Positions 23,354 to 32,081 of a stretch of DNA of 43,105 bases are shown piece after piece. This stretch comes from Candidatus Thalassospirochaeta sargassi (GTDB lineage: Bacteria; Spirochaetota; Spirochaetia; UBA9216). The position numbers were made by a program, and so were the translations under genes. Numbering within the stretch: the stretch's first letter is position 1; the number at the start of each line of letters is the position of its first letter. The notes beneath the pieces were generated by a model. The model did not search any database. It saw only the letters and a program-made list of their open reading frames with translations, and had not been told where the DNA came from. The stretch is taken from the NCBI GenBank assembly GCA_028532855.1, contig JAQQAL010000009.1, positions 1 through 43,105 of the forward strand, given 5' to 3'.

Positions 23354-23848
23354 ATGAACACTGACAGAACATCAATTAATATTATATTTGTGTGTACCGG
23401 CAATATCTGCCGCAGCCCCTCCGCTGAAGGTATATTCAAATCGATAGTTGCTGAAAACGGGCTTGAAGACCGCTTCAATATAGACTCTGCAGGAACTGAC
23501 TCCTACCACAACGGCGAGGCGGCTGACAGCAGAATGCGGAAGCATGCCGGAAAGAGGGGCTACAGTCTGACTTCGAGATCGAGAAAGCTTAACCATGATG
23601 ATCTTGAAAAATTCGATTACATAATTGCCATGGACTACGGTAACTATCAGCAGATATCGCGCTATGATCGTAAAGGGCTGGCTGATGGCAAGCTTTGCAT
23701 GATGAACGATTTTTCTGCTGTGTTTGAAGGGCTTGATGTTCCTGATCCATGGTACGGCGGCCCCGATGGTTTTGAAACTGTTCTCGATATGCTTGAAGAC
23801 GGATGCCGTGGGTTGTTGGAGTATTTAAAAAAAGAATATGAACTTTAG
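23354..23848 (+). CDS. Low-molecular-weight protein-tyrosine-phosphatase family protein
   Basis: This 164-residue protein has the LMW-PTP P-loop CTGNICRS (CX5R, C14 to R20), directly after the first beta strand IIFVC. The general-acid aspartate is in the DVPDPWYGG segment near residue 130. The full family length and both catalytic motifs are present, so it should be an active phosphatase. It overlaps a fructosamine-kinase-family gene by 11 bases. In several bacteria such pairs act in protein deglycation, the LMW-PTP homologue removing phosphate from protein-bound ribulosamine 5-phosphate. The alternative is a tyrosine phosphatase of an exopolysaccharide system, but no tyrosine kinase gene is here. 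Shine-Dalgarno weak. Confidence 0.9.
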   Translation: MNTDRTSINIIFVCTGNICRSPSAEGIFKSIVAENGLEDRFNIDSAGTDSYHNGEAADSRMRKHAGKRGYSLTSRSRKLNHDDLEKFDYIIAMDYGNYQQISRYDRKGLADGKLCMMNDFSAVFEGLDVPDPWYGGPDGFETVLDMLEDGCRGLLEYLKKEYEL

Positions 23849-24653
23849 CAGCGTAATTAATGAGGAAATTCTTCGAGTAAGACCGTTGCTTGGCGGTGAT
23901 ATCGGTCAAAGCTTTCATGTCACAACGATCAGATCGGAATATTTTGTTAAATATTACAGGACTCCCGGTATGGCAGGGGCTGAGGCAGCAGGGCTTGCTG
24001 CAATGTCCCAATCTACAACTGTTTCGCTGCCTGAGCTTGTAGATTCCGATGATCATTTTCTCGTACTGAGGTTTATTAATTCAGCAGCAAGACGGCATGA
24101 TTTTCAATCCGTTCTGGGCAGGCAGCTTGCAGCAATGCATAAGAAAACTGAATCTGAAGGTTTTGGTTTTGAGACTGACAATTTCATCGGCAGAACACGA
24201 CAGAAAAACAGCTTTAAGTCTGATTGGTCAAGCTTTTTAACAGAGAACCGGCTTGGATATCAGATTGAGCTTGCCGGTGATAAGATGCTGGCTGAGGCCT
24301 GGAACAGGCTGCGAAGCAGGCTTCCTGAGCTGCTTGCTGGTACCGAAGAGCCACCCTGTCTTATTCATGGTGATCTCTGGGCCGGGAATGTGATAAGCGG
24401 ATCCGCAGGGGAGCCTGTGCTGATAGATCCGGCGGCCTATTACGGCCACCGGGAAATGGAACTTGGAATGACAATGCTTTTCGGCGGGTTTAATGAAGAT
24501 TTCTACGCATCCTATGATGAGGAATATCCCCTTCTGCCCGGATGGCGCGGCCGAATGAATCTATACATCCTTTACCACGTGTTGAATCATTACAATATGT
24601 TCGGCGGCGGCTACCGTTCTCAGGCCCTCAGTCTGATGCGCGGCTACTGCTGA
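23838..24653 (+). CDS. Fructosamine/ribulosamine-3-kinase family protein
   Basis: This 271-residue kinase-fold protein has the fructosamine-kinase active-site sequence CLIHGDLWAGNVI, where D is the catalytic base, and the metal-binding VLIDPAAYYGHREMELGMT segment. The N-terminal LLGGDIGQSFHV replaces the glycine-rich loop, and FVKYY carries the ATP-site lysine. The family phosphorylates ketoamines on glycated proteins at O3, which destabilises and removes the sugar. It overlaps the phosphatase gene by 11 bases (translational coupling). Its 3' end overlaps the convergent VWA-FHA gene by ten bases. Aminoglycoside kinases share the fold, but the HGDLWAGN form favours a fructosamine kinase. Confidence 0.9.
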   Translation: MNFSSVINEEILRVRPLLGGDIGQSFHVTTIRSEYFVKYYRTPGMAGAEAAGLAAMSQSTTVSLPELVDSDDHFLVLRFINSAARRHDFQSVLGRQLAAMHKKTESEGFGFETDNFIGRTRQKNSFKSDWSSFLTENRLGYQIELAGDKMLAEAWNRLRSRLPELLAGTEEPPCLIHGDLWAGNVISGSAGEPVLIDPAAYYGHREMELGMTMLFGGFNEDFYASYDEEYPLLPGWRGRMNLYILYHVLNHYNMFGGGYRSQALSLMRGYC

Positions 24654-25987
24654 ACTATGGTGCTGTCTGGTTCATCAAATATTATCGTGCTGCCCTCAAT
24701 TCGAATAACATCGCCCGGGCTCAGCGTTTTCGTTTTTACTTTTCGGTTGTTAACCCGCACCGGCCGCTTGCTGACAATGGTATAGGCGCCGGTTTTATCA
24801 TCCTTAACAATTGTTGCATGCTCAGGGTCCGCCCCGCTGCCTCCCGCCAGGGTGAAGTCTGCGTCCCGGCTGGCTCCGATAATTGTTGAACCCTCACTGA
24901 GGATTGTTTTTTGATTTGAGTCCAGGCCCTGAATCTGAGGATTCTTCGAAGGCCGGTCGAAGGGGATGATGAAAAGGGCCGCTATGCCGGCAGCAGCAGC
25001 TGCAAGCAGGATCAGCAGTACGGGCATACTGGATTCTGAGCTTCCACCGAAAAGCAGAGGGACCATAAGCATCCGACTGTCGCTATGAGTCTGCCAGGCA
25101 AGTGTAATTTCACCGATGCTGCCGTCGAGCGGAGGGGCTTCAACTGTAATTTTGTACTCGTTAAGAATTTTTTCACGTATTGCCGAATAGACTCCGCTGA
25201 TTTCCTCGGTCGAGCGTACATCATAGAACCTTCCACCGCTCTCGGCGCAGATCATGCCGAGGGCTGCATCCCTGTTATCGGATATGCTTATTCCGTCGAG
25301 GGTGACCCCGTTTTCATGATATGCCGTAATGATTTCATCCGGTTCGGCAACCTTATTTTTCCAGAACGGATGACTGCTGCCGCTGTGCTCTGAAACGGAA
25401 TAGTTTTCACCGTCGGATAATACAATTACAGCCCGTCGTCCTGCCTTTCCGGGGAAGGCGGATGCTGTACTGATTAGTGAATTATAGAGTTCGGTGTATG
25501 AACCGGCTGTATCCGGCTGGGAAATCGTTGAAAGACTTCGCCTGATTCCGGGTATGTCGGTTCCGAGTTCGGCGGCTTCCTTTAAATCTGTGTTGAATGT
25601 GTATACAGCAGCGTTGTCTCCGGATTCCTCTATTTCATCAAGAAATGCTTCGAGTGCAGTTCTTGCCTGTTCCATTCTCTGCTCGCCCTGAAAGCTTTCT
25701 TCGTACATTGAACCGGAATTATCCACAAGCAGGATGAAGTCGATAGCCGCTTTTTCATTCGGTCTGGTTTCGAAGGATGTAATCTTCATCACGCCGGCTT
25801 TTTTCTCGATAACGCTGAAGTCTTCCGCCTTAAGGCTTGATGAATCAGCACCCGGCAAAGAGAAGTAAATGTCTATTTCACCCTTGAACATCAGGGCGTT
25901 GGAGTCAATCTGTGAGATTCTCAGGTCCTGCGACCATAGCAGGACTGTTGAAAGCAGCAGTGCTGTTATCAGTATAGGTTTCTTCAT
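24644..25987 (-). CDS. VWA domain membrane protein with C-terminal FHA-like domain
   Basis: This 447-residue protein has an N-terminal signal peptide (to about residue 19). An extracytoplasmic von Willebrand A domain (about 80-275) carries the metal-binding MIDAS start DNSGSM (89-94) and a later VLSDGEN. A membrane helix follows at about 322-342, with a cytoplasmic FHA-like domain at about 360-440. The FHA has IIGASRDADFTL, the EHATIV strand and VRVNNRKV, but the classical GR and SxxH residues are altered (GAS, DPEH), so phosphothreonine binding is uncertain. It is the last gene of the operon with the Ser/Thr kinase, 12 bases after the FHA membrane gene. It could transmit cytoplasmic phosphorylation to an external adhesive or complex-forming domain. 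Confidence 0.85.
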   Translation of the reverse strand: MKKPILITALLLSTVLLWSQDLRISQIDSNALMFKGEIDIYFSLPGADSSSLKAEDFSVIEKKAGVMKITSFETRPNEKAAIDFILLVDNSGSMYEESFQGEQRMEQARTALEAFLDEIEESGDNAAVYTFNTDLKEAAELGTDIPGIRRSLSTISQPDTAGSYTELYNSLISTASAFPGKAGRRAVIVLSDGENYSVSEHSGSSHPFWKNKVAEPDEIITAYHENGVTLDGISISDNRDAALGMICAESGGRFYDVRSTEEISGVYSAIREKILNEYKITVEAPPLDGSIGEITLAWQTHSDSRMLMVPLLFGGSSESSMPVLLILLAAAAAGIAALFIIPFDRPSKNPQIQGLDSNQKTILSEGSTIIGASRDADFTLAGGSGADPEHATIVKDDKTGAYTIVSKRPVRVNNRKVKTKTLSPGDVIRIEGSTIIFDEPDSTIVQQ

Positions 25988-25999
25988 AATTATAATCCT

Positions 26000-26911
26000 T
26001 TATAGTGAGAGGTAGATCATCTTAAGATTGCCGAGCTGGATGACGTCCTGATACTTCAGGGTCTGCTCGTCTGTCAGCGGTTTATCATTGAGAAGGGTAA
26101 CACCGGTAGCCGCCGGGGGTTCTTCAACGTCTGAAGGCTCCTGTAATGTGAGCCTGATGTCATCACCACTGCGAACAAGAAGGCCTGTCAGGAGATTTTC
26201 ATAATTATCGATTGCAATGTCGCATCGAAGCCCGGGACCGACTGTAGTTTTATTTTTTATTATCAGGTATTCACGATCCTTCAGCGGGCCGTTCAGAATC
26301 CGGAGTCTTGCAAAGCTGAATCTTCTCTCGAATTCTCCGATAAAAAGTCCGGTGACGGCACCCATGATAATCAGTCCGGCGGCCTTTATGTATATCGCAC
26401 CGGGCAGCATTCTAATTAAGAACTCGAATATAAACCCGCCCGTCAGTCCTCCGATAAGACCGCCTGCAGCTCCGGCAGCAGCCCGTCGAAAGGCTTTTTT
26501 CTGCAAACCGTCTATAGCGCCTATTGCAGCTCCCATCAGCATCCATCCGATTCCGCGCCATACAGCGGGAAGCAGATTACCGGACTCTCCGGGGGCAGGG
26601 GCTGAAAGTGAGGCGGTCAGCAGCATGCCCTGCGAGGCAAGCACTTGCGCTGCCGCGGCGGTTACAGCGCCTGCAGCGGCTGCGATGAGCGCGCGAAGAA
26701 GTCCGGATTTCAGTTCCTTGTATATTATGCCGTCGGCAAAACCGAAACTGAAGCCGAAGATGAAGCCCAGTGCCGAACCCTGAAAAAGAGCAAGCATCAG
26801 ATAATTCGGCAGTCCAGAGAGCGAAAGTATTTCAACAGCCGCGAACGAAGCCGTTCCTGCTGCTATGCCGAGCAGAAGATATAACACCATTTTTTTATTT
26901 CCTGTCATCAT
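26000..26911 (-). CDS. Multi-pass membrane protein with C-terminal FHA-like domain
   Basis: This 303-residue protein is very rich in glycine and alanine over residues 1-195, forming about six membrane segments with GxxxG-like repeats (for example GAAGGLIGGLTGGF). The soluble tail (about 202-303) resembles an FHA domain: RILNGPLKDREYLI, TVGPGLRCDIAID, GVTLLNDKPL and a final hydrophobic strand. The usual GR of the first loop reads GP, so phosphopeptide binding may be lost or altered. GGGGAGG precedes the ATG, which overlaps the kinase stop by four bases (ATGA). Co-translation with the kinase suggests a membrane substrate or docking partner. No specific transport function is recognised. Confidence 0.75.
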   Translation of the reverse strand: MMTGNKKMVLYLLLGIAAGTASFAAVEILSLSGLPNYLMLALFQGSALGFIFGFSFGFADGIIYKELKSGLLRALIAAAAGAVTAAAAQVLASQGMLLTASLSAPAPGESGNLLPAVWRGIGWMLMGAAIGAIDGLQKKAFRRAAAGAAGGLIGGLTGGFIFEFLIRMLPGAIYIKAAGLIIMGAVTGLFIGEFERRFSFARLRILNGPLKDREYLIIKNKTTVGPGLRCDIAIDNYENLLTGLLVRSGDDIRLTLQEPSDVEEPPAATGVTLLNDKPLTDEQTLKYQDVIQLGNLKMIYLSL

Positions 26912-28482
26912 TTCTGTTCCTCCCCGTTTTGCGGGATAAGTTCCGCCTGAAAACGCAGAACTTTTTGATCATTATTGATTCTGAGAACCCATTCCTGTTC
27001 CCTGTATCCGTCTGCTGTTATACGGAAGCTGTAAACCGCTCCCGAATAAATTTCGGTTGTATCGACTGGCACATAGCTACCCTCATTGTAAACCTCGACC
27101 CTGGCTTCTGATCTGATATCTGCGCCCGTAACCGAATTGTTTATGCTCCAGTCGATGCTTATCGGAGCTGCTTCAGTCTCAAATGCATCTATTGTTATGC
27201 TCCGCATTTCGTTACTGTCGGCAGCTGGGCTGAGTTCGAATGAGGACCATATAATCTCGTTTCCTATTATCGTTTTGGCCCTGTATCGTCCTGCTTCAAG
27301 AATAACAGGCAGGCTGCGGTATTCAGATTTCCTCCTGAGGTAGCGTACTGCAGAATCGACCCGTGGAATATCTTTGCCGTCGTCTATAAACATCGTGGTC
27401 TGAGGAATAAAACCGGCTCCTCCTGCAGGATTTTCAATGGTGAACTCGAGCCGCCCATAGCGCGACGGATAGAATAAAAGCCTGTGCAATCCACTGATCC
27501 TGCAGATGCTGAAGACGACAGCGGCGGCAGCGAGCAATATTATTCCCGCTGTTATGTAAAGTTTTCGGGATGTGCCCCGCTTTCGGCTTACCGGCGGCGG
27601 AGCCTGTTCTTCTATCATTGCGCATAATCTGGCTCTTACATCATCCATGCTGTATCGTGCAAGCCAGGCTTCGAGTCTTTTAATTACCTTATCTATGTCC
27701 CTGCACCTTGAGCGCGGTCGCGGTTTGATAAGCGAGTTTATGATTCTGCGAAGAGGTTTCGCAATCGATGGGTTTATTCTTCCCGGAGGCTTGTATTTCC
27801 CTTTTTGAATTCTCCGCACAGTTTCAGGTGAAAAACTTCCCGGAAAGGGTTTCAGTCCTGTAAGCGTTTCATACATCATTACCCCGAGCGAGTATAAATC
27901 GGCTCGGTAGTCTACAGTCCGTGAGTTTTCAAACTGTTCAGGTGCCATATACGCCGGTGTCCCGAGCGTCATACCTTCGGTTGTAAGAGTGTCGTCTTCG
28001 AAGTCGCCGGCAGTTGATGATGCAATGCCGAAATCAGCGAGCTTTATTTCACCGGTACGGGAAATAAGGATATTTCCCGGTTTTATGTCCCTGTGTACAA
28101 CACCCTTTGAGTGGGCGTATTTCAGCGCCTTTGCCGTGTACAGAAGGATGTATGCCGCTGTGCAGCTGTCGAGGTACCGCTGTTCATCGAGAAGGTCTTT
28201 CAGCGACTGCCCGTCTACATATTCCATTACGATATAATGACTTCTTCCCTGAACAAAGTGGTCCTGGACATCAACAATGTTGTCGTTCCTGAAATCCATT
28301 AGAATACGGGCTTCACGCTTGAACCTTTCGGTTATTGTTGCATTGCCGCGAAGAGTGAGTTTCTTGAGTATAACAGGACGCTTAAGTGTCGGATGAATCC
28401 CCTTGAAAACAGCACCCATTCCGCCTGTTGCGACCAGTTCTTCGATTTTGTATTTATCGATCTGATCAGGTATTTTTGCCAC
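26908..28482 (-). CDS. Membrane-anchored Ser/Thr protein kinase (eukaryotic type, PknB-like)
   Basis: This 524-residue protein has a complete Hanks-type kinase domain (about residues 8-275). It shows glycine loop ATGGMGAVFKG, ATP-site lysine in VILKKL (about K40), catalytic HRDIKPGN (H130-R131-D132), DFG (151-153 region) and APE in AYMAPEQ. The threonine-rich loop EDDTLTTEGMTLGT would be the activation segment. A single membrane helix lies at about 309-328, and an extracytoplasmic domain of about 190 residues follows with no PASTA repeats (ends ELIPQNGEEQK). It starts at GTG with GAGGGAG upstream and overlaps the phosphatase gene by 17 bases. Likely substrates are the FHA proteins next to it. 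All catalytic residues present. Confidence 0.92.
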   Translation of the reverse strand: MAKIPDQIDKYKIEELVATGGMGAVFKGIHPTLKRPVILKKLTLRGNATITERFKREARILMDFRNDNIVDVQDHFVQGRSHYIVMEYVDGQSLKDLLDEQRYLDSCTAAYILLYTAKALKYAHSKGVVHRDIKPGNILISRTGEIKLADFGIASSTAGDFEDDTLTTEGMTLGTPAYMAPEQFENSRTVDYRADLYSLGVMMYETLTGLKPFPGSFSPETVRRIQKGKYKPPGRINPSIAKPLRRIINSLIKPRPRSRCRDIDKVIKRLEAWLARYSMDDVRARLCAMIEEQAPPPVSRKRGTSRKLYITAGIILLAAAAVVFSICRISGLHRLLFYPSRYGRLEFTIENPAGGAGFIPQTTMFIDDGKDIPRVDSAVRYLRRKSEYRSLPVILEAGRYRAKTIIGNEIIWSSFELSPAADSNEMRSITIDAFETEAAPISIDWSINNSVTGADIRSEARVEVYNEGSYVPVDTTEIYSGAVYSFRITADGYREQEWVLRINNDQKVLRFQAELIPQNGEEQK

Positions 28483-29497
28483 TCTGTACTCCCTCGTCCA
28501 AGCGAATAATGTCTCGTTCCGGATTAAAAACCTGCATATCAGTAAATGCCGCTATCAGCCATTTGTCGGGACGATTTATTTGAATATACCGACCGTCCTG
28601 TCTGGATGAATACAGCCCTTTCACGGCTCTGTGCCCTCCGAATATTCTGCTTGCCGGTATATGTTTGTCGAAATTATTAAGGGTTCCGGCCGCACTGCCT
28701 GATTCAGCCCGGTCATTATCTGTCCATGTAAGACTGTATATGACTTCTGAATTGTCATACGCGTTGATTACCTCGTCTCTGCCTATAACCCTCCCGGGTT
28801 CTGAATGGCATACCAGAAAATCAGGTCCTTCCGCAAGTAGCGGCAGCGTCTTTTCCCATTTATAGATTGTATCGAAAACATCCATGCCCATAAACATCTG
28901 AACCCAGAGTTTAACCATTTCACCCTCGTGGGCATATTTCCTGAATGGGAAGTTCCCTTCAGCCTGTTCATTGGCAATATTCTCATGATTGCCTTTAAGA
29001 AAATGAAAATTATCAGGAAAGGCTGTTTTGACAGTCGCAATCATTTCAAGGAGTCCCAGATTTTCCTTCATCTCCTGATCGATGTTGCGATGTTTTTTAT
29101 ATCCGCCTATCCATTCCTGCATTGCTCTTCCCCAGCGCTTCTTTCCACGGATTTCCGAGTGAAAGGCGTCGCCTACACAAATGACCCTGGCAAAACCCTC
29201 TTCCATGTCTGTCAAAACAGTTCGGCCGGAAAAGCCCTTCCAATTCATTACCGTGTTAAAGAAACCGGTCCGTCCGTGCAGATCCGGAACTATAATGTAA
29301 TATCCGCCCGGGGATAGCCTGACAAGGCTGCCTGCTTTGCCGCTGCGGGTTCTGGGGCGGTTATTTTCATGAAGCATGGTGGAGATAGCTGCTTCAAGAT
29401 TATTCTGTAAAGCATCGGCCTCGGGAAGCCCGCGCCGCTTGAGAATGAACTCAAGCTTTGCGGCGGCTTCCTTCGCGCCTGTTCCGTGTCCGTTCAA
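28466..29497 (-). CDS. PPP-like metallophosphatase (Ser/Thr phosphatase fold)
   Basis: This 343-residue protein carries calcineurin-like phosphatase motifs in order. These are DLHG at 72-75, GDAFH at 109-113, GNHE at 169-172, VCHSEPG with H231, and FGGHR at 287-290, with an arginine-bearing loop after the last. These supply the two-metal site of PPP phosphatases. Unlike PPM-type phosphatases, which more often partner Hanks kinases in bacteria, this is a PPP-type member. The start is TTG with GAGG six bases upstream, eight bases after the stop of the acidic YSGS-protein gene; its end overlaps the kinase gene by 17 bases. It probably reverses the kinase's phosphorylations. A nucleotide phosphatase role remains possible. 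Confidence 0.82.
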   Translation of the reverse strand: MNGHGTGAKEAAAKLEFILKRRGLPEADALQNNLEAAISTMLHENNRPRTRSGKAGSLVRLSPGGYYIIVPDLHGRTGFFNTVMNWKGFSGRTVLTDMEEGFARVICVGDAFHSEIRGKKRWGRAMQEWIGGYKKHRNIDQEMKENLGLLEMIATVKTAFPDNFHFLKGNHENIANEQAEGNFPFRKYAHEGEMVKLWVQMFMGMDVFDTIYKWEKTLPLLAEGPDFLVCHSEPGRVIGRDEVINAYDNSEVIYSLTWTDNDRAESGSAAGTLNNFDKHIPASRIFGGHRAVKGLYSSRQDGRYIQINRPDKWLIAAFTDMQVFNPERDIIRLDEGVQSGKNT

Positions 29498-29505
29498 ACT
29501 TTACC

Positions 29506-30051
29506 TCAGAATTCCTGAATAGTAGTTTTATTGATTGCGGCGAAATCCTGGGCAAGGATCATTGTTACTTCATCAAGCAGTTCTTCTTCCTGCTCCGGTT
29601 CCATTTCTTCCTTAAAGACTGCTATTGCATAGACTGCACTGCTTTTAAGAATTGGACCCTTGTCGAATTCAACTGACGCACCTTTTTCGATATTCTTCAT
29701 AAGCACAGATTCTTCCTCCGATGCACTTTCCGGTACGTCGTTTCTGAGACCGATGCTGAGATAATCAACTGATCGATAATCGTTCTGCTCGGGGCCGAGG
29801 TTGATCAGTGAACCGGAATAGGTCATTATCAATGCACCCCTGGTGTCATCCATATCAAGGCCGTCAGTTTCTTCCATCTCATGCTGTTTGGTCTGTTCGA
29901 AGAATGACTGCTGTTTTTCAAGCCAGCCTTCCGAAAGCTTTTCAAGTGCGTCGTCGAATGATGCAATGTTCTCTTCAAGCTTTGCTGTCTTAACCAGATT
30001 TTTTATATGTCCCTGTACCTCAGGTGCGAGGCTATCAAATTTTTCTCCCAT
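29506..30051 (-). CDS. Small acidic protein of unrecognised family (YSGS domain), first gene of kinase operon
   Basis: This 181-residue, strongly acidic cytoplasmic protein shows no signal peptide and no known motif. It is clearly related to the N-terminal 180 residues of the divergently encoded HU-fusion protein: both share a W-x2-K-x4-F-x-EQ-x-K helix, D-x-RG ahead of YSGS, then GP, a YSI/YLSI-x-LR segment with VP, VE-x-DK, and IAV near the end. The helical N-terminus and beta-rich middle suggest one globular domain. The frame is open further upstream, but the ATG at 30051 has GGAG seven bases before it and the paralogue aligns from there. Eight bases separate it from the phosphatase gene, so it heads the kinase operon. 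Function unknown; a regulatory subunit is one guess. Confidence 0.8.
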   Translation of the reverse strand: MGEKFDSLAPEVQGHIKNLVKTAKLEENIASFDDALEKLSEGWLEKQQSFFEQTKQHEMEETDGLDMDDTRGALIMTYSGSLINLGPEQNDYRSVDYLSIGLRNDVPESASEEESVLMKNIEKGASVEFDKGPILKSSAVYAIAVFKEEMEPEQEEELLDEVTMILAQDFAAINKTTIQEF

Positions 30052-30200
30052 TGTGTTACTCCTGTTATCAAATATTATATGCAGCTGCGAAGATAATCCT
30101 ATACCTATTTTCAAAAAAAAACCATTTTTTCCGGAAAAATATGAAAAAATGTTGTTTTTTTTATAAATTTGCCCTATTTTATTAACAGGAGATACGGAAA
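30052..30200. promoter_or_regulatory. Divergent promoter region of the paralogous YSGS genes
   Basis: Plus strand: TTGTTT (30152-30157), 17 bases, TATTTT (30175-30180), then AGGAG before the ATG at 30201. Minus strand: a perfect TATAAT lies at 30079-30074 with no good -35 box. Between them is the perfect 14-base palindrome TTTTTCCGGAAAAA (30126-30139), flanked by A/T tracts that should bend DNA. The site could be bound by the HU-fusion protein encoded alongside (inference). Confidence 0.5.
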
Positions 30201-31082
30201 ATGGACGGAAATATGATATTTGAAGACCTGCCTGAAGCAATCGGGAGGCATCTGCAGGGTCTTGCAGCAGAGCAGGAAAAGCTTGAGGATCAGGATTATC
30301 TTGCCAGTCTGGCCGATGTCTGGAGGCAGAAAGAGGCTCTGTTCCGGGAGCAGGCGAAGTCGGTGAAGCTTGAAATAGTAGATTCGGTTTCTAATAAGGA
30401 CGGACGCGGCATGATGATTCTAAGCTATTCGGGATCGATTCTATGCGTGGGTCCGGTTTTTATGACATCTACAAATATCAACTTCAGCAGATGGACTGAG
30501 TACTCGAGTATAAAACTGCGCACCGAGGTTCCTGATATTATTATGGAGAAAGCCGCGACGCTGGAGGCTCCTGTTGAGGTTGATAAATCCGTTCTGCTCG
30601 GAAACTCCAGGGTGAAGGCTACAAGCCCCGCCTACCTTATAGCCGTATGTCCTGAAGATCTGAATGAGGATGAGCAGGATAAACGCATCCGCGAGAGCGC
30701 TGTTTTTATTACTGCCGGTTTTATGAAGTATAACCAGACTCTTCAGCTTGATACCAAATCAGTTCCTGATCAGTTTACTATGAAATCCATGGTGCGCTTC
30801 ATTGCCAAAAAGCACGGACTGACCGGTCAGGAAGCGAAACTGGTTATTGATGATTTTATTACCCTAATTGAAACCGGGATGCTGATGGGGGATTCAGTCC
30901 CCTTCGGCCGTTTGGGAAAGTTTTCTATAAAGACGAGGGATGCCCAGAAGGCAAGGGTTGTTAAGCATCCGCAGACCGGTGAGGAGATGACTGTAGGGGC
31001 AAAACCTGCAAGGGGAGTTCCCAAGATATCATTTTCGAGTTATCTGAAAGAGCGTGCTGAGGGTGTTGTTTCCGACGAATGA
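30201..31082 (+). CDS. YSGS-domain protein fused to an HU/IHF-type DNA-binding domain
   Basis: This 293-residue fusion has residues 1-180 homologous to the small acidic protein encoded on the opposite strand (helix WRQKEALFREQAK, then GRGMMILSYSGS at 69-79). Residues about 193-285 form a complete HU/IHF-like domain: two helices (FIAKKHGLTGQEAKLVIDDF), then VPFGRLGKFSI, the arm-forming KARVVKHPQTGEEMTV, PARGVPKISFSSYLKER. The arm holds the family's proline-containing ARxxxxPQTG pattern, so DNA binding or bending is likely. It starts at ATG with AGGAG nine bases upstream. Divergence from the kinase operon suggests co-regulation and a role as its DNA-side output or repressor; this is inference. 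The architecture was not recognised as a named family. Confidence 0.85.
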   Translation: MDGNMIFEDLPEAIGRHLQGLAAEQEKLEDQDYLASLADVWRQKEALFREQAKSVKLEIVDSVSNKDGRGMMILSYSGSILCVGPVFMTSTNINFSRWTEYSSIKLRTEVPDIIMEKAATLEAPVEVDKSVLLGNSRVKATSPAYLIAVCPEDLNEDEQDKRIRESAVFITAGFMKYNQTLQLDTKSVPDQFTMKSMVRFIAKKHGLTGQEAKLVIDDFITLIETGMLMGDSVPFGRLGKFSIKTRDAQKARVVKHPQTGEEMTVGAKPARGVPKISFSSYLKERAEGVVSDE

Positions 31083-31111: not shown

Positions 31112-31801
31112 TCAGCCGGACTGTTTTAGGAATCTCTTGATAGCGTCTTTTGACGGGGGGCAGCCTTTGAGGCATTTCTGATTTTCTCCACATGTGCATA
31201 TACCGATACCGGTCTTTCCGGCTGGAAGGCCGATGCCTTTGAAGTCCTGTCCAATAAGGATTGATCCGGGCTCATTCAGTAATTCTGCCAAACTGCTGCC
31301 CTCGGTATATAATTCGCGCAATGCTGATGTCAGATTCCTGAAACATGCAGAGCAGGCAGAACGCTGATCGACTATCCTGCTAATCCAATTCTTAATGCTG
31401 ATGTTTTCAGGGCTGCCGCCTTCCTCCCGGCTCCGGGTCACAGTTTTATCCGACCACCAGGGTGAAAGCAGGCTTCCATCTTCGTCAGCAAGACTGGCAA
31501 TGGTCTCACAGATTCTATAATTATCACCCTCAATTGTTGTCTCAACCGGTGAGTCTGCTGTAGATCGATAAGACTGATTCCGTACTTTTGCGCCAGAGGG
31601 ATTTACCCGCATACTTTAAATGCCTTTGATGTTGAATCTCCCACCCGGGAGCCCCCGCTATACCGATGTTCTTATAGCCTTAATCGAGCAGGAATTCTAT
31701 AACCGCAGCTGCTATTTCCGGATGGGGGGTGGGCCTCCGGAAGCTGGGCTGCTTACCACGAGATTAGGTTTCAGCAGGATTGGTGGATGAGGAGCTCCAA
31801 G
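31112..31801 (-). pseudogene. Decayed DUF362-family gene
   Basis: Read on the minus strand, pieces of a DUF362 protein appear in different frames. First comes ILLKPNLVVSSPASGG (frame ending at 31712), then HPEIAAAVIEFLLD in another frame beyond a run of six C near 31729-31724. A TAA follows in place of the usual lysine before GYKNIGIAG. GDSTSKAFKVCG is then in a third frame, ending in a stop. The remaining open stretch (31112-31612, 166 codons) ends with ACSACFRN, SILIGQDFKGIG and KGCPPSKDAIKRFL, resembling a DUF362 C-terminus. The central part expected in a protein of about 400 residues is missing. At least two frameshifts, one nonsense change and a deletion indicate a dead gene; residual translation of the 3' part is possible. 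Confidence 0.72.
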
Positions 31802-31804
31802 CCA

Positions 31805-31930
31805 ATCGGTTGCTGAAGATACATCAGCTTCTTTATCTATAAGAACCGTATTTAATTCATACTGAGACAGTTTTCCTGCAACTGCGGCGCCGCTTACACC
31901 GGCACCGATTACAGCAGCATCATATTTCAT
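31805..31930 (-). pseudogene. Truncated N-terminus of an FAD-dependent oxidoreductase
   Basis: From the ATG at 31930 the frame encodes KYDAAVIGAGVSGAAVAGKL, a perfect FAD-binding dinucleotide fold (GxGxxG). ELNTVLIDKEADVSSAT follows, as in LhgO/anaerobic GlpA-like enzymes, where the next residues are normally SKANSAIVHAG. After about 41 codons the similarity stops abruptly and the frame continues straight into DUF362 sequence. This is a deletion junction between two former genes, not a functional fusion. Confidence 0.72.
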
Positions 31931-32081
31931 AGATATATGATTGACCGTTTCTTTTTGATTTGCAAGAGAAATTGTAAAAGAGTGTTATAATAAAAGGAAT
32001 CACATTGCGACTTATAATGAAACGGGGGTGAATTTCTGAAAATTAATCCTTCAACTATGCAGACTGACCAGCTTTTGGAGT

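Follow-up and report, generated by a model that had tools for sequence, protein, structure and literature searches.

The TerY-P triad consists of linked VWA, PP2C and kinase genes, and PppA, the phosphatase of the PpkA-PppA-Fha pathway of the type VI secretion system (T6SS), is also of the PP2C type. In this T6SS pathway the VWA domain is carried by the kinase and Fha reads the phosphothreonine (pThr) of TssL (PMC3953482; PMC1262709 for the VWA domain of PpkA). Neither Treponema pallidum nor Borrelia burgdorferi had a Ser/Thr kinase of this kind in a survey from 2005 (PMC1262709). The window analyzed here, a stretch of 43,105 nucleotides from Candidatus Thalassospirochaeta sargassi, contains a six-gene locus with the following features:

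29506..30051, minus strand: YSGS protein, 181 aa, pI 4.24, first gene of the operon
28466..29497, minus strand: PPP-fold metallophosphatase, 343 aa, atypical signature
26908..28482, minus strand: Hanks Ser/Thr kinase, 524 aa, GTG start, Pkinase E=8.9e-51
26000..26911, minus strand: multi-helix membrane FHA protein, 303 aa, glycine-rich, degenerate C-terminal FHA
24644..25987, minus strand: VWA-FHA protein, 447 aa, signal peptide, VWA, membrane helix, degenerate FHA
30201..31082, plus strand: YSGS-HU fusion, 293 aa, divergent from the operon, PF00216 E=5.1e-15
30109..30133, no strand assigned: phased A-tract element TTTCAAAAAAAAACCATTTTTTCCG, in the divergent promoter, conserved

The locus resembles the T6SS pathway in that a membrane Hanks kinase, a cognate phosphatase, FHA and VWA domains are encoded together (PMC3953482; PMC1262709 for the VWA domain of PpkA), but here a single protein with a degenerate pocket combines VWA and FHA, and the locus additionally has YSGS and HU. 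No T6SS genes were recognized by eye among the window ORFs and the flanks examined; with no such genes seen, a PPP rather than a PP2C phosphatase and degenerate FHA pockets, it falls outside T6SS threonine phosphorylation. VWA protein, phosphatase and kinase are linked as in the TerY-P triad, whereas the phosphatase has a PPP fold, the VWA domain is predicted to be extracytoplasmic and is joined to FHA, and no Ter genes were seen. The GarA and OdhI switches of Actinobacteria are small FHA proteins with a phosphorylatable N-terminal Thr, and beside related loci there is, recurrently, a small FHA partner with a D-x-T-I threonine near its N-terminus and a complete pThr pocket; such a protein is present in many relatives but was not found in this genome, and YSGS shows no sequence relationship to FHA and has a fold without match. 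In being anchored in the membrane and having lost the pThr residues, the FHA folds recall those of YscD, PrgH and MxiG of type III secretion, where their use is structural (PMC3635987), but this locus is without secretion genes and its FHA proteins are coupled to a kinase and a phosphatase.

Organization of the locus and genome inventory

The six genes lie at the coordinates and in the orientations given by the original prediction, which had been made from the sequence of the window. The five minus-strand genes are separated by gaps or overlaps of less than 20 bases (+8, -17, -4 and +12 bases in the order from YSGS to VWA-FHA), and YSGS-HU is transcribed divergently from the opposite strand across an intergenic region of 149 bp. 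YSGS starts at the ATG at 30051 with AGGAG upstream, and a 244-aa ORF with a TTG start was rejected as an over-extension. The protein features described earlier also agree with our data, including the acidity of YSGS, the single membrane helix of the kinase (residues 308-326), the single helix of VWA-FHA (323-341), which follows the VWA domain, and an FHA-tailed membrane protein with about five hydrophobic helices, whose FHA-like tail was detected through a sub-cut-off match to Yop-YscD_cpl.

The locus had been called a self-contained Ser/Thr module. The 3.84-Mb genome (100% complete) has only one Pkinase (PF00069) match, the operon kinase, and no PP2C_2 match; a canonical FHA (PF00498) was not found in it, the repeat search having been run without a positive control. 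Together with the very strong gene linkage described below, this inventory supports the earlier view. A single Pkinase match was also obtained in 13 of the 31 YSGS genomes.

On the plus strand at 23354-24653, a low-molecular-weight tyrosine phosphatase gene (LMWPc E=6.7e-41) overlaps a fructosamine-kinase-like gene (E=1.1e-78), and the 3' end of the latter extends 10 bases over the end of the oppositely oriented VWA-FHA gene. On the other side, 31112-31984 (minus strand) appears to be a decayed FAD-dependent oxidoreductase gene, with a Rossmann-like N-terminal part MKYDAAVIGAGVSGAAVAGKL encoded in one frame and, in another, a Cys-rich ORF of 166 aa that has no Pfam match. Several relatives carry a canonical FHA gene in this position on the HU-fusion side.

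Gene linkage across Spirochaetota

YSGS was present in 44 of the 393 Spirochaetota genomes searched, which belong to at least two classes. When 84,980 species genomes were scanned with the phosphatase alignment, 233 relatives were obtained, of which the best 80 were all labelled spirochaete except one 'Deferribacteres' MAG. Loci were drawn from the YSGS bait (L033-L072) and from the best phosphatase matches (L073-L151), so that remote family members are under-sampled, and the 90 distinct phosphatase loci left after duplicate removal were the basis of the linkage counts. Among testable loci, YSGS lay upstream of the phosphatase in 79/84, the kinase lay downstream of it in 79/85 and VWA-FHA was present in 61/67. 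The five-gene set was kept in the same order and on the same strand in 57/63 testable loci (in three of the 57 the two FHA proteins form one ORF), indicating that the arrangement is not due to chance; the scattered, unlinked homologues that would have spoken against the prediction were not found in this neighbourhood analysis. In most loci the genes for PPP and the kinase overlap or are almost contiguous. YSGS-HU was divergent upstream in 38/70 testable loci and not beside the operon in 32/70, and a strong PPP match was found in 28 of the 29 genomes with full-length YSGS-HU. A plasmid match for YSGS-HU, as a sign of plasmid-borne spread, was sought and none was obtained. In one locus (L118, 6974-14975) the PPP-kinase pair occurs in two opposing copies.

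A literature search did not find a description of the locus. The six genes constitute a real and conserved phosphosignalling module of spirochaetes, apparently not described before, which is a variant of kinase-phosphatase-FHA circuits.

An intact kinase and a divergent PPP-fold phosphatase

The kinase is predicted to consist of a catalytic domain, the membrane helix and a C-terminal extracytoplasmic domain. Its Pkinase match (173 bits) is over the cut-off, and the catalytic Lys, HRDxKxxN and DFG of Hanks kinases are present; HRDIKPxN, DFG and the activation loop LT..gmtLGTPxYMxPEQ are conserved over 26 loci.

The phosphatase matched Pfam Metallophos just under the cut-off (E=8.8e-4). Its AF2 model (pLDDT 91.3, pTM 0.92) has PP1, PP2A and PP5 as best PDB matches, with E-values of about 1e-10 to 1e-11 (best 2.5e-11) and TM scores mostly of 0.5-0.6. 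The protein reads PDLHGR, GDAFHSE, KGNHEN, HSEP and GGHR, and D72, H74, D110, N170, H171, H231 and H289 are invariant in alignment A3 (24 sequences); the fold, six metal ligands and catalytic His of the PPP family are thus in place. Of the PPP signature (GDXHG, GDXXDRG and GNH(E/D); PMC535813) only GNHE is kept, since the family reads PDXHAR for GDXHG and GDxxHxE for GDXXDRG, without the Asp-Arg of the latter, and the protein therefore represents a divergent PPP-fold family. Its designation as a PPP-type metallophosphatase held for the PP1/PP2A fold and metal ligands but not for the signature. It shares fold, metal ligands and catalytic His with bacterial-type PPP phosphatases and ApaH, but differs from them in its altered GDXHG and GDXXDRG and forms a conserved Spirochaetota family of its own. 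GDXXDRG is absolutely conserved outside ApaH-like groups, and alterations mark ApaH and its relatives (PMC535813); protein-phosphatase activity, predicted from gene context, is therefore likely rather than proven.

Membrane FHA domains and the canonical FHA partner

The best Pfam match of the membrane FHA protein is Yop-YscD_cpl (PF16697; E=0.0025, under the cut-off). VWA-FHA contains a VWA domain (E=3.6e-12), in which the MIDAS residues (DxSxS, then Thr and Asp) are conserved as DNSGS, TE.Y and LSDG, and an FHA domain resembling Rv0020c (E=2.3e-4). The two FHA domains had been expected to read phosphothreonine, for which the GR, SxxH and NG residues are diagnostic (PMC1262709), and these were scored on an alignment to the Rv0020c FHA. 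The GR arginine was kept in 6/62 membrane FHA and 2/57 VWA-FHA proteins, the SxxH serine in 10/62 and 0/57, and the NG motif was lost in almost all members of both families, whereas a control FHA family adjoining PPP-kinase pairs (family f3) retained GR, SxxH and NG in 10/10. On these counts the two domains were rejected as pThr readers, and with their binding residues lost they are probably scaffolds. In several genomes (among them L038, L054 and L055/L103) the two proteins are matched by a single ORF, which suggests that they act in a shared complex.

Family f3, from the same class and suspected to be treponemes, has the PPP-kinase pair without YSGS, in the gene order FHA-PPP-kinase (L152-L160, L171), which means that the pair can do without YSGS. 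The f3 FHA protein (114-123 aa), encoded before the pair, has an N-terminal D-x-T-I conserved in most members, and judged by this motif and its intact pThr pocket it may be a GarA-like switch outside Actinobacteria. A minority of YSGS loci also have an FHA orthologue near the HU fusion or the operon, and a canonical GarA-like FHA is a recurrent seventh module partner in relatives. The f3 gene order and these orthologues suggest that the ancestral core was likely a kinase, a PPP phosphatase and a GarA-like FHA, to which YSGS, membrane FHA and VWA-FHA would have been added outside f3. A PF00498 match was obtained somewhere in 26/31 YSGS genomes, in a few of them only to the degenerate membrane FHA, and the notion that YSGS replaced FHA as sole reader phylum-wide was dropped; for the present genome alone it is a possible reading.

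An orphan YSGS gene in locus L068 lies within the same 20 kb as a 182-aa FHA ORF, apparently fused to a LuxR-type helix-turn-helix, which might be a further link from FHA to DNA.

YSGS and YSGS-HU

YSGS had been regarded as one member of an unrecognized paired family. It has no match in Pfam or NCBIfam. Its AF2 model is confident (pLDDT 92.6, pTM 0.88), and Foldseek at E<=0.001 retrieved no match from PDB or from BFVD (viral models), so a known family was ruled out; the predicted fold is apparently new, meaning without match among solved and viral structures. In a tree, 88 YSGS and 54 YSGS-HU sequences split perfectly (support 0.993), indicating that the two are paralogues from one old duplication.

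Alignments were made of 30 YSGS sequences (A1) and of YSGS-HU (A2). The two proteins have 18 conserved positions in common, many of them polar, including K46, S79, G80, S81, R93, Y97, S99, R103, D105, S138 and N174; the shared polar positions would suit a candidate binding site. No conserved exposed Ser/Thr stood out as a YSGS phosphosite. YSGS-HU is composed of an acidic YSGS domain (residues ~1-185, pI 4.7) and a basic HU domain (~190-293, pI 9.7), of the DNA-bending kind, with the PF00216 fold and NPxTG arm, the arm proline being present in 16/22 sequences and replaced by Phe or Leu in the others.

The divergent promoter element

The region between YSGS and YSGS-HU carries TTTTCMAWAAAAACCATTTTTTYCG, in which C-rich steps about 10 bp apart alternate with A/T tracts. 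This A-tract element (~25 bp) recurs in the same position in 12 loci, the phosphatases of which go down to ~42% identity to ours, and in most of them a TTGAAA-like sequence follows. The core motif occurs 19 times in 1.63 Mb of loci, nearly always at the divergent promoter, and the extended pattern has a single site in the whole genome with up to 3 mismatches allowed. A regulon defined by the element was rejected on this count, and the one other short match, overlapping the start of an unrelated ORF, looks like chance. Its restriction to this promoter suggests a site of local autoregulation. Scanning for sigma-70 promoters was uninformative, as shuffled sequences yielded more hits than the real one.

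Discussion

We propose, at a probability of about 0.5, that the locus encodes a transmembrane Ser/Thr phospho-switch specific to spirochaetes. The VWA domain, predicted to be extracytoplasmic, and the ectodomain of the kinase would face the periplasm and may sense there, and VWA-FHA and the multi-helix FHA protein would build a single membrane scaffold via FHA-like domains that have ceased to read pThr. The kinase and the PPP-fold phosphatase would set the phosphorylation state of cytoplasmic clients, with YSGS as their cognate adaptor or substrate, and YSGS-HU, possibly in contact with YSGS, would carry this state to DNA as feedback, most simply by binding the A-tract element of the shared divergent promoter. 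The proposal is supported by the conserved five-gene order, the sole Pkinase match in a genome without a PP2C_2 match, the conserved kinase, MIDAS and metal-site residues, the PPP match in 28/29 YSGS-HU genomes, the 18 shared positions and the unique promoter element. Counted against it are the lack of a YSGS phosphosite candidate, the phosphatase without Asp-Arg, the HU fusion missing beside the operon in 32/70 loci and the f3 pair without YSGS.

Several of these observations would also fit an output confined to proteins, in which YSGS is a cytoplasmic GarA- or Fha-like adaptor for an enzyme or envelope machine and YSGS-HU either acts as a dedicated autoregulator or is a nucleoid protein with a borrowed domain, sending no wider signal to DNA. 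The single genomic site of the A-tract element at this promoter, the frequent separation of the HU fusion from the operon and the canonical FHA filling the slot beside the f3 pair all favour such an arrangement, but the HU domain is DNA-competent by its sequence, YSGS-HU is inherited in parallel with YSGS phylum-wide and almost always accompanies a strong PPP match, and we consider this reading possible but tentative. The phosphatase might instead hydrolyze nucleotides, as ApaH does, or other small phosphoesters, so that the locus couples a nucleotide signal to the kinase and phosphorylation is not reversed. In favour are the changes from GDXXDRG to GDxxHxE and from GDXHG to PDXHAR, alterations in the first of these motifs being a mark of ApaH and its relatives (PMC535813); this is nevertheless unlikely given the PP1, PP2A and PP5 folds as best matches, the conserved tight linkage to the kinase gene, the pThr-type FHA protein that travels with the f3 pair and the failure to find a PP2C_2 match elsewhere in the genome.

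An FHA circuit as first proposed, with the membrane proteins reading pThr through non-canonical residues, could draw on the fold-level similarity to Rv0020c, on the VNN/VND asparagine kept in 62/62 membrane FHA and 57/57 VWA-FHA proteins and on the SxxH histidine kept in most. The GR arginine, SxxH serine and NG motif have gone from almost all members, however, and the related YscD and PrgH domains lost the same residues, with pThr binding by PrgH judged unlikely (PMC3635987), which makes this the least probable explanation by our estimate.

To return to the phospho-switch, the most original part of the module is the pair of YSGS and YSGS-HU, with its predicted new fold and proposed adaptor role. 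A bolder and rather doubtful extension is that YSGS is a phospho-reading or phospho-switched adaptor of undescribed fold doing the job of a pThr-binding FHA, its HU-fused duplicate converting the signal of a Hanks kinase directly into chromosomal DNA control. With the phosphatase, the PP1/PP2A fold gains a further, divergent branch in bacteria. Spirochaete Ser/Thr phosphosignalling has hardly been described. The present phylum-wide module comprises one kinase, an unusual phosphatase, a new-fold adaptor pair and a DNA-binding fusion, and since this genome has no other Hanks kinase to compete with it, the substrate, the reader and the output can be tested directly.
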